A DNA stretch of 64,000 nucleotides from positions 1,925,262 through 1,989,261 of the forward strand of contig NZ_AP014821.1 in NCBI RefSeq assembly GCF_001548115.1, read 5' to 3'. Position 1 is the first letter of the stretch. Each line of letters begins with the position of its first letter. The notes beneath the pieces are model-generated. The model did no database searches. It saw only the letters and a list, made by a program, of their open reading frames with translations, and was not told the DNA's origin. Shown one piece after another: positions 49,442 through 52,603 of the stretch. The DNA comes from Geminocystis sp. NIES-3709 (GTDB taxonomy: Bacteria > Cyanobacteriota > Cyanobacteriia > Cyanobacteriales > Cyanobacteriaceae). Both the position numbers and the translations under genes were made by a program.

Positions 49442-50419
49442 TTATTGATAATTTACTTTTAATTTGAGATAATTTTCACTTAAAGCTATCAAAATTATTG
49501 TTAATAATAAGCTCAATAAACTACCATAAATATCGAAAGAATAGATTAGTCCAGCTATGACGATCGTGGTTAATATATAAGTTGATGCTACAGCTTGATG
49601 AGACCATCCCGATTGTTGTAGTCGTTGATATATATGCGTACGATGGGCTTCAAAAATATTTTCTTTCCTAATTAAACGACAAAAAATAGTATAAATTGCA
49701 TCTCCCACTAAGGGTAAAGTGATAAAAATTGCTGACCAAGATAAATTAATATTATCAGTATTTTGAAGTAGCACGATCGCGATCGCTCCACCTAAAAAAG
49801 TACTCCCGACATCTCCCATAAATATTTTAGCTGGAGACCAATTCCAGTACAAAAAACCTAATAAAGTAGAGACAAGAATCAACCATTGGTATTGTTGTAA
49901 ATAAATTGCTAAAAAAGAAAATTGTACAACACAAACTCCTGCCACAATACCATCTAAACCATCCATAAAATTGTAAAAGTTTATCAGTGCAGTGAATCCG
50001 ATTACCGTTAAAATCGTAGCAATAATAATACCAGCCAAGCCTAAGTTATTAAAAGGTAGGGGAAAAATACCATAACGAATGACAGCAAAAACAGCAACGG
50101 CTAATTGTACTCCATAACGAAGACGAGAAGGAAGATTATATCGATCGTCCAAAAAGCCTATTATAGTTAAAGGTAGAAGGATTAAAGGTAAAAATATATC
50201 AGATTTTATTGGTAAAACAGGTAATAAGGCGATAACAATTATCCCGATAGTAAAAGCAATAACGAATCCTAAACCTCCTCCTCTGGGAGTTGGATTTACA
50301 TGAGAACTACGATCGTTAGGAATATCTAACAGTTGTTTACTAAAATTTTGGATAATGAGAAAAACCAATAGTAAACTCAATAAGAAACTAGCAATTAAAA
50401 GAGATATAGTAGGAATCAT
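49442..50419 (-). CDS. WecA/MraY-like polyprenyl-phosphate glycosyl-1-phosphate transferase
   Basis: A 325-residue membrane protein with ten or so hydrophobic segments. It has the family motifs GFLDDRYNLPSRLRYG (about 88-103), NFYNFMDGLDGI (about 147-158) and FMGDVGSTFLGG (about 200-211), with the catalytic Asp residues. These enzymes start lipid-linked glycan synthesis by moving a sugar phosphate to undecaprenyl phosphate. The sequence is of the WecA type, not MraY of peptidoglycan. It lies near two glycosyltransferase genes but not in one operon. Confidence 0.9.
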   Translation of the reverse strand: MIPTISLLIASFLLSLLLVFLIIQNFSKQLLDIPNDRSSHVNPTPRGGGLGFVIAFTIGIIVIALLPVLPIKSDIFLPLILLPLTIIGFLDDRYNLPSRLRYGVQLAVAVFAVIRYGIFPLPFNNLGLAGIIIATILTVIGFTALINFYNFMDGLDGIVAGVCVVQFSFLAIYLQQYQWLILVSTLLGFLYWNWSPAKIFMGDVGSTFLGGAIAIVLLQNTDNINLSWSAIFITLPLVGDAIYTIFCRLIRKENIFEAHRTHIYQRLQQSGWSHQAVASTYILTTIVIAGLIYSFDIYGSLLSLLLTIILIALSENYLKLKVNYQ

Positions 50420-50536
50420 ATTTATAGGTTTACCTTCTCACAAAAACCATTAATTATCATCACTAAGAATAGCATAACTAACGTCAGTGCCTAATATTTT
50501 ATATAATGTACTATTAGTTTTTTTGTATATTTTTAA

Positions 50537-50570
50537 GAAAAATTAAGGCAAAGACTTTAAATCCTCGCCT
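50537..50570 (-). terminator. Terminator of the small membrane-protein gene
   Basis: On the minus strand AGGCGAGGATTTAAAGTC pairs back to TTTGCCT (50546-50570, several wobble pairs), and a TTTTTCTT tract follows. It lies about 46 bases beyond the stop of the 38-residue gene read leftward. Confidence 0.6.
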
Positions 50571-50616
50571 ATTACCTTACCTGTTATTTATTCTCATTAA
50601 TAAACTTATCTACAAG

Positions 50617-50733
50617 TTAGCTTAATCTGGTATTTTCCGTAGAATTAGGAGGAAGTTTTTTTCTTTTTTCTACCATGATTAAGAAGATATAAACTACTAC
50701 TAAATAAAGCAACACCAAAAAGGGAATCAGCAT
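50617..50733 (-). CDS. Small membrane protein (38 residues), unknown
   Basis: Starting at the ATG at 50731-50733, the product is 38 residues: a hydrophobic span (IPFLVLLYLVVVYIFLIMV, residues 3-21) and a polar, basic tail (EKRKKLPPNSTENTRLS). The start is set by GGAGG at 50744-50748, ten bases before the ATG; a longer frame with 24 more residues would lie through this ribosome binding site. A -10 TATAAT is at 50759-50764 on the minus strand, and a hairpin terminator follows. It matches none of the small photosystem or cytochrome subunits I know. The set of signals makes a real gene likely. Confidence 0.6.
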   Translation of the reverse strand: MLIPFLVLLYLVVVYIFLIMVEKRKKLPPNSTENTRLS

Positions 50734-50758
50734 AATAATAAATCCTCCATTAATTAAT

Positions 50759-50764
50759 ATTATA
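50759..50764 (-). promoter_or_regulatory. -10 box of the small membrane-protein gene
   Basis: TATAAT on the minus strand, about 26 bases before the start codon and 11 bases before GGAGG. It overlaps a perfect 16-bp palindrome ATATTTTTAAAAATAT at 50762-50777. No good -35 was seen. Confidence 0.45.
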
Positions 50765-50805
50765 TTTTTAAAAATATGCCCGATCGAACCTAAAAAATAG
50801 AGCAA

Positions 50806-51631
50806 TATGATTAGTTAAGAATAAAAAGTTTAATCATATTTTGAGCAGGATTTTATGCCTACACAGAAAAACCTAATGTAGTTATGCAAGTCACCTAAAC
50901 TATTCTATATGAAAAGGTTAGAATTAATAAATGACATAACTGTTAAACGGTTTTTGATAGAAATGATAAAAAAGAAAAAACCTAAATTATCATAATAATT
51001 CCCTAAAAAAATACTGTAAAAAAAGGAAACTTTTATTCAAAAAATAGAATAAAATAATATCAATCCTTTCTGTTATATTCAATCCAAAACCAAAAATATT
51101 AATGGAATAAATAAAATTTCCAAAATAATTTGGCAATGAAATATACTTATTTACAGATTTATTACCGTCGAGATAAATCATTTTCTATTACTGACAAGTG
51201 TTGGAAAATGTATTATCCCAAAATTTTTGTCCCTAAGAATCCACAATCGAAAGTTCATGATAATAAACGATCAAGTATATCTTACTTAGTAACTTTTAAG
51301 TATATGGATTTTTCCTTATTTTAGATAAAAGAGTTTTCTCTTTATCTACTACAGAAGATGTATTAAGGACATTTACACTCTGATATTTTTGCTATGACAG
51401 AGATTGTCATCTACATTTCTACCATAACATAAATTGACATAAAATTATTAAGATAAAAAACTTTTTTTCTTTTTCCATAAACCCTGATAAATAAGCATTT
51501 TTACTGTATATTAACAATGACTTATAGGAAAAAAAATCCTAAGACGATCTCAGGAAGGGAAACGATAGCTTAAAATAACAATAAGATATGTGAACTTTCG
51601 TAAACTATTTTTATAAAAAAACTACTCATCA
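50806..51631. other. Long gap without a clear gene
   Basis: An 826-base AT-rich region between the small membrane gene and the prenyltransferase gene. It holds an inverted repeat AATATGATTA/TAATCATATT (50804-50813 and 50831-50840) and a hairpin GATAAAAGAG/CTCTTTATC (about 51325-51347). Two short open frames, 50990-51181 (minus) and 51130-51324 (plus), overlap each other, have low-complexity AT-rich codons and no ribosome binding site, and are not called. Confidence 0.4.
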
Positions 51632-52603
51632 ATGACAACTGCAACCTCTCTATTTGACCCGGTAGAAAACGATTTATTATTACTAATAGATAACCTAACC
51701 AGTTTAGTACAGGCGCAACATCCCATTTTAGGTGCGGCAGCAGAACATTTATTTAGTGCGGGAGGTAAAAGAATCCGTCCTGCGATCGTGCTGTTAGTCT
51801 CTCGTGCTACTATGATAGGATTAGAAATTACTCCAAGACATAGACGATTAGCAGAAATAACTGAAATGATACATACTGCTAGTTTAGTCCATGATGACGT
51901 AGTAGATGATGCAGAGTTAAGAAGACAAGTACCAACCGTTAACACTTTATTTGGTAATCGCATCGCTGTATTAGCAGGAGACTTTCTTTTTGCACAATCT
52001 TCATGGTATTTAGCAAATTTAGATAATCTACAAGTAGTAAAATTATTATCTGAGGTGATTAGAGATTTTGCAGAAGGAGAGATTCAACAGGGATTAAGTT
52101 GTTTTGATACAGATGTAACACTAGAAAAGTATTTACAAAAAAGTTATTTTAAAACCGCTTCTTTAATAGCAAATAGTGGCAAAGCTGCGGCTATTTTAAG
52201 TGATGTGGGAGAAGAAACTGCAAACAAAATCTATAGTTATGGACGTAATTTAGGATTAGCGTTTCAAATAGTAGATGATATATTTGATTTTACCGCTTCT
52301 GCGGAGGTTTTAGGCAAACCTGTAGGTTCAGATTTAGCTAGTGGTAATCTCACAATTCCCATATTATTTGCAATGGAAGAAAAACCCTCTTTAAAAATTT
52401 TGATAGAGAGAGAATTTAGTGAGGAGGGCGACTTACAACAAGCCTTAGATTTAGTTAATAATAGTAATGGTATCGAAAAATCAAGAGCATTAGCTTATCA
52501 ATATAGTCAATTAGCCTTAGAAGATTTAAAATGTTTACCTAAGTCTCCTGCGAAAGAATCTTTAATTGATTTAACAGATTATGTTTTGAGTCGTATTAAA
52601 TAA
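51632..52603 (+). CDS. sds: Solanesyl (all-trans polyprenyl) diphosphate synthase
   Basis: Makes long all-trans prenyl diphosphates for the side chain of plastoquinone. The first Asp-rich motif is in HDDVVDDAELRR (about 91-102) and the second in QIVDDIFDFT (about 215-224), with GGKRIRP near 48-54. Length 323 residues fits the cyanobacterial plastoquinone side-chain synthases. Chain length is set by residues before the first motif and is not certain from sequence. It is alone on its strand. Confidence 0.9.
   Translation: MTTATSLFDPVENDLLLLIDNLTSLVQAQHPILGAAAEHLFSAGGKRIRPAIVLLVSRATMIGLEITPRHRRLAEITEMIHTASLVHDDVVDDAELRRQVPTVNTLFGNRIAVLAGDFLFAQSSWYLANLDNLQVVKLLSEVIRDFAEGEIQQGLSCFDTDVTLEKYLQKSYFKTASLIANSGKAAAILSDVGEETANKIYSYGRNLGLAFQIVDDIFDFTASAEVLGKPVGSDLASGNLTIPILFAMEEKPSLKILIEREFSEEGDLQQALDLVNNSNGIEKSRALAYQYSQLALEDLKCLPKSPAKESLIDLTDYVLSRIK

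Follow-up and report, generated by a model that had tools for sequence, protein, structure and literature searches.

A conserved family of single-pass membrane microproteins encoded divergently from the solanesyl diphosphate synthase gene of cyanobacteria

Introduction

Small membrane proteins often prove to be missing subunits or regulators. In a 64,000-nucleotide stretch of the genome of Geminocystis sp. NIES-3709 (hereafter the window), an initial annotation singled out a minus-strand reading frame of 38 codons, described as a self-contained gene with its own promoter, ribosome binding site and terminator. This locus raises the question of whether so short a frame is a gene and, if so, where its transcription starts and what its product does.

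Results

A short reading frame conserved in relatives

The sequences described for the immediate surroundings of the frame are the following:

50617..50733, minus strand: ORF of the small microprotein (38 residues, single span, ATG start, stop included)
50744..50748, minus strand: GGAGG ribosome binding site, ten bases before the ATG
50759..50764, minus strand: TATAAT of the initial annotation, present, not conserved
50546..50570, minus strand: terminator-like hairpin of 11 pairs (4 G-C), then the T tract TAATTTTTCT

The GGAGG, the ATG (at 50733), the 38-codon frame with its stop ending at 50617, the membrane span, the basic tail, the hairpin and the T tract were all found where they had been placed. 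The protein has one hydrophobic stretch, with a 19-residue mean hydropathy of up to 2.99, ahead of the basic tail. AlphaFold2, supplied with a 34-row alignment, modelled a single helix from residue 3 to residue 25 (mean pLDDT 79.1). A longer, TTG-started frame is not needed, since all 14 relatives from the genus and family start with ATG, and with the residues ML, at the same point.

A tblastn search had been suggested as a check of the gene. At E≤1 the peptide was matched in 14 of 14 genus and family relatives (nine at 5.3e-4 or better, three at 0.015-0.062 and two at 0.15-0.16), and conservation in relatives is thus established. With the same threshold, 45 of the 100 nearest genomes (own genome counted) gave a match, the weaker ones further out including chance matches. 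Alignment A1, made from 30 tblastn loci, left out L008, L017, L019 and L024, which are close to rows already in, and L018, L020, L026, L027 and L029 as doubtful; the gene of L029 was later recovered as L108. Alignment A3 consists of 34 hand-picked members. A 21-member profile matched 172 of 388 genomes of the class at E≤0.01, and a 34-member profile 109 of 386 genomes of the phylum; the genome sets overlap, so that these counts are not fully independent, and a genome "without the gene" is one where the profiles used detected none. The 34-member matches comprised 95 of the 104 genomes of the window's order (own included), 11 in other orders of the class, and three weak ones outside it (E 1.1e-4 to 3.7e-3, one of them within a frame of 336 codons), which were taken as chance. 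In the small-genome family f34, the 34-member profile found no match among the genomes listed and the 21-member profile a single weak one (G243, E 0.0045).

The gene nearly always occurs once per genome, the exceptions being G000, G325 and G404 with the 21-member profile and G000 and G673 with the 34-member profile. G000 is the genome of the window itself; its second, weak match lies within a 43-codon frame (C1:3107421-3107489, minus strand, E 0.001) and is probably due to chance.

Codon comparisons indicate that the small peptide is under purifying selection: pN/pS fell below 0.37 in six of six groups, with values of 0.366 (13 Nostoc-like loci), 0.364 (5 loci of the window's genus), 0.284 (7 loci), 0.190 (4 loci), 0.085 (3 loci) and 0.068 (2 loci). 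Family members are about 30 to 77 residues long, with a single hydrophobic helix and, in most, a basic tail. All 34 aligned members have Y10 and Y15, both within the helix. Conservation between residues 5 and 24 is periodic in the alpha-helix band, at a level reached by 29 of 5000 permutations. One face of the helix thus appears constrained, which suits packing against a partner. In the window protein, the family's I-P-x-L-A-like core and the tyrosines Y10 and Y15 share one span, and its gene diverges from sds; at position 7 the protein has V where A is usual.

Linkage to sds

The gene that diverges from the small ORF was identified as follows:

51632..52603, plus strand: sds, solanesyl diphosphate synthase (522.1 bits to TIGR02749, cut-off 383.2)

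The enzyme builds the plastoquinone tail. This linkage had no part in the initial annotation. It was assessed in 41 loci, namely the window and 40 relatives picked from tblastn and profile matches, long contigs being favoured. The sds gene lay upstream of the small gene, in divergent orientation and within 2 kb, in 39 of the 41 (distance 405-1962 nt); in one locus, L064, another ORF separates the two. The exceptions were L074 and L080 (family f56), where the small gene stays with murI.

The reciprocal analysis started from sds. The best 80 of 576 confirmed sds stretches were kept and the sample therefore leans to sds genes close to the query (64-89% identity, the closest, at 89%, being that of Geminocystis sp. 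GBBB08). The small gene was found in 59 of these 80, always upstream and on the opposite strand; four stretches were cut too short, and 17 had no detectable copy. Elsewhere in the 3.5-kb flanks of the same 80 loci, there was no match to the small gene at E<0.01. Loci carrying the gene include those of Geminocystis, Crocosphaera, Nostoc, Calothrix, Microcoleus, Moorena, Leptolyngbya, Nodosilinea and Oscillatoria; Microcystis, Prochloron, Waterburya, Chamaesiphon and a Thermosynechococcus MAG are among those without it. Of 25 genomes with a weak profile match or none, 24 yielded an sds locus; the small gene was present in seven of the 24, again always upstream and on the opposite strand, and went undetected in 17. 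Weak matches can thus be genuine, since synteny places those of G021, G104, G115, G118 and G147 beside sds, in divergent orientation; G049 and G089 had no profile match, yet each has a diverged copy divergent from sds. The sds linkage may stem from protection of a divergent region and not from function.

Taken together, conservation, synteny and codon-level selection support a gene for a small membrane protein. We consider it almost certain that the ORF is a genuine, single-copy cyanobacterial microprotein gene. To this extent the initial reading of a gene for a small membrane protein is supported; its claim of a promoter at the TATAAT is not (see below).

Relationship to known proteins

With the window protein, Pfam and NCBIfam returned no family at E≤1, and phmmer found no related chain in the PDB. 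The 21 and 34 members gave only isolated weak matches in Pfam and NCBIfam (best E 0.003); against the PDB, the 21-member profile produced two chance-like matches (E 1.1-1.2) and the 34-member profile none. These empty searches of all three databases bear out, for the window protein, the initial remark that it matched no known small subunit. The solved cyanobacterial complexes, including the NdhP and NdhQ chains, are presumably represented in the PDB, and the known small subunits of the photosystems, cytochrome b6f and NDH-1 (NdhP and NdhQ among them) were rejected as identities because no related PDB chain was found. NdhP and NdhQ are likewise single-span cyanobacterial peptides, of less than 5 kDa (PMC4131877), but the family profile finds no related PDB chain.

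Also rejected as identities, by location and N-terminus, were Norf4 and the protein named SliP4 or HliR1 (we take the two names to denote one protein). SliP4 and HliR1 of Synechocystis 6803 are described as having 37 residues, HliR1 with one predicted membrane span (PMC5126843, PMC12850537). HliR1 is encoded upstream of sodB, whereas the window gene adjoins sds; no homologue of HliR1 is reported outside Synechocystis, and the start given by the published primer differs from that of the family (PMC5126843). Norf4 of Synechocystis resembles the window protein in having one span and in being conserved in cyanobacteria; it has 31 residues and lies opposite gap1, and its N-terminus, judged by the published primer, is different (PMC5126843).

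In Nostocales-family loci the gene order is small gene (minus strand), sds (plus strand), a gene on the opposite strand and hetZ (plus strand), HetZ having been identified. In Anabaena sp. PCC 7120, alr0096 is presumably sds. From gene order and strand, asl0095 of this strain is probably the orthologue of the small gene: given the Nostocales order and the position of asl0097, which lies upstream of and antisense to the hetZ leader (PMC3610870), asl0095 would fall just before sds. Within the literature searched, the asl0095 tag turned up in one paper; there it is annotated as a "hypothetical protein", and a FurC site is predicted 7 bases from its start (PMC10406281). In our loci the published FurC site was matched at best with 3 mismatches, in L076 and L081, which is only suggestive. 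No study of the small gene was found among the literature matches listed, a coverage that leaves subscription journals mostly outside; as far as the literature was searched, the gene is uncharacterised. The sds-linked microproteins constitute a new family of a known kind, that of single-pass membrane microproteins.

Transcription signals

The GGAGG has counterparts in the window's family, where, counted by eye, GGAG occurs at this place in 11 of 15 loci and G-runs in the other four. The TATAAT is present at 50764-50759 as annotated, but it is missing from that place in all four other members of the genus, and a consensus promoter scan scored no promoter there. It was rejected as the main promoter, which, from its absence in the other four genus members, it probably is not. 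The hairpin and its T tract exist, but by eye the hairpin is not common to the five genus members. A terminator scan of 50300-51700 returned two terminator-like sites against a mean of 0.3 in shuffled sequences. When the sequence within 200 nt downstream of the gene was folded, 9 of the 41 loci gave terminator-like structures, as did one of 41 shuffles, which keep only single-base or per-column composition; this folding scan missed the window's own hairpin.

Comparison of the intergenic regions uncovered two conserved blocks, one of which is the sds promoter. The other reads toward the small gene and consists of TG-N-TANNNT followed by a conserved TAAGGATTTCAAAA-like stretch. The features assigned to the intergenic region are:

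51421..51429, minus strand: extended -10 promoter-like element TGTTATGGT (alignment TGYTATNNT), proposed promoter of the small gene
50734..51414, minus strand: putative 5' leader of about 680 nt, assuming that transcription starts some 7 nt past the -10
51587..51604, minus strand: HLR1-like direct repeat TTTACGAAAGTTCACATA within the promoter of sds, departing from the HLR1 consensus at 2 positions

TGYTATNNT is present in nine of nine aligned loci of the window's family. Based on the alignments, TGTTATGGT at 51429-51421 is a likelier promoter than the TATAAT, in which case the mRNA would have a leader of about 680 nt. The window element is about 690 nt upstream of the ORF; in 38 loci the distance ranges from 248 to 1040 nt. 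Another terminator-like hairpin, which has a run of eight T, is found at 51555-51537 on the minus strand, just upstream of sds and on the strand opposite to it. It precedes the proposed small-gene promoter and would halt transcripts that run out antisense to sds.

A wider profile of the far TGNTANNNT element did not detect the window copy. Among the 41 loci it scored E<1e-3 in 20, mostly training loci, and found nothing in 14, including the window and most of its family. Applied to sds loci, the profile, whose 17 training loci have relatives in the test set, reached E<1e-3 in 40 of the 66 that carry the small gene (13 weak, 13 none), whereas none of the 34 loci without the small gene produced a match even at E≤1 in the 1,500 nt searched. 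Moreover, L074 and L080 (family f56) retain the element, some 430 nt before the ORF, with no sds within about 6.7 kb. The 40/66 versus 0/34 split and the persistence of the element without sds suggest that it belongs to the small gene and not to sds.

In the sds promoter block, an HLR1-like repeat occurs mostly about 40 bases before the sds start codon. Among the loci L098-L201, a copy with no more than 1 mismatch stood upstream of sds in 67 of 102 (shuffles: 1 of 306), and one with no more than 2 mismatches in 90 of 102 (shuffles: 9 of 306), the shuffles keeping only single-base or per-column composition. By the HLR1 consensus, we take the repeat to be an RpaB site. Its presence suggests that plastoquinone tail synthesis may be under redox or high-light control; among the literature matches listed, no report of HLR1 control of sds stood out.

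A structured leader in Nostocales

The leader was further analyzed in 15 Nostocales, where a covarying structured element was delimited:

L118:2570-2660, minus strand: covarying structured RNA element, with counterparts at this place in 14 further Nostocales loci
L076:6250-6343 and L081:6251-6344: further copies found by the covariance model

The structure comprises 12 pairs, with 94.4% of cells paired and double changes in 5 pairs. As it came from a fold of the same alignment, the test favours structure; none of 500 shuffles had as high a covariation score, and related sequences can outscore shuffles of this kind even when unstructured. In 13 of the 15, two tandem 5' strands can each pair with one 3' strand (90.4% and 97.1% of cells). 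The two 5' strands are near-copies, so that the covariation of the two helices is not independent. From these alignments, the competing 5' strands look like a switch. In 83 sources outside the training set, the covariance model R1 identified L081 and L076 and, weakly, L082 (E 0.009) and L126 (E 0.1); L086, L091 and L161, Nostocales-type loci with the gene, gave no match. The structure was rejected for the window, where R1 finds nothing. At gathering scores, Rfam had no match in the window and, in 10 relative loci, reported two tRNAs and nothing at the L076 leader element.

Discussion

We propose that the product of the small gene is an accessory single-pass membrane microprotein, one face of whose helix docks on a larger membrane protein. 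Judging from sequence comparisons and the helix model, we give this reading a probability of roughly 0.55. The positive-inside rule orients membrane spans, and by this rule the protein would sit in the thylakoid or plasma membrane with its N-terminus out and its C-terminus in. The conserved face, around residues 3, 7, 10-11, 14 and 18 and with Y15, would pack against the larger protein, and the small protein would then have an accessory or tuning role and not that of an enzyme. The initial annotation had surmised that it modulates a larger membrane complex, an idea in keeping with conservation on one side of the helix. Many genomes seem to lack the gene, so that a modulator is likelier than an essential step.

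The partner could belong to isoprenoid-quinone supply, being either Sds or the membrane prenyltransferase acting after it, since sds is the neighbour kept most often. A link to plastoquinone, for which genomic linkage is the basis, is a tentative suggestion, with the odds against it. The gene went undetected near sds in 17 loci of the best 80 of 576 and in 17 of the 24 loci from weak- or no-match genomes; plastoquinone synthesis thus seems not to need it there.

The nearest competitor, which we consider somewhat less probable still, is that the protein serves a photosynthetic or respiratory complex, as a small subunit or a regulator, and is linked to sds only through a shared light-responsive control region. 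Such a role would agree with the occurrence of the gene in genomes of the window's class, with only three weak, chance-like matches elsewhere in the phylum, with the conserved HLR1-like repeat of the sds promoter, and with a size and topology that resemble those of known small subunits. Against it, neither the 21- nor the 34-member profile has a relative in the PDB, and the patchy absence of the gene speaks against a core subunit.

An envelope role, the gene being part of an amidase-murI block and modulating a peptidoglycan or lipid-carrier protein, is improbable. It draws on the presence of murI in 46, and of the amidase in 33, of the best 80 of 576 sds loci (one example of each was identified) and on L074 and L080, which keep murI and not sds beside the gene. 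But murI (glutamate racemase), although the next commonest neighbour, accompanies the small gene in only 16 of the 41 loci (one example exceeds the TIGR00067 cut-off) against 39 of 41 for sds, and in the window neither murI nor the amidase is among the neighbours compared.

We regard as still less plausible that the locus makes an RNA of dual or mainly regulatory function, in which the long leader outweighs the peptide. The element-to-ORF distances of 248-1040 nt and the covarying structure of Nostocales would suit such an RNA, but the peptide is under purifying selection, and the structure model reaches, beyond its training set, only L076, L081 and, weakly, L082 and L126, and not the window. 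Finally, a chromosomal type I toxin of the TisB or Hok sort, a small hydrophobic peptide under a long leader, is very improbable: length, single span, basic tail and long leader are reminiscent of such toxins, but the gene is nearly always in one copy per genome, has a fixed synteny and specifies invariant tyrosines.

To return to the docking microprotein, its most elaborate version is a long shot: a control unit for quinone supply, made of the far promoter, the long leader (with two exclusive covarying helices in Nostocales) and a microprotein whose conserved helix face would tune the membrane step of plastoquinone synthesis encoded beside it. The small gene is found in many cyanobacteria, nearly always in single copy, under purifying selection and linked to sds, and it belongs to no Pfam or NCBIfam family. 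Its position poses the concrete question of whether a microprotein governs how the quinone carrier of photosynthetic electrons is supplied.
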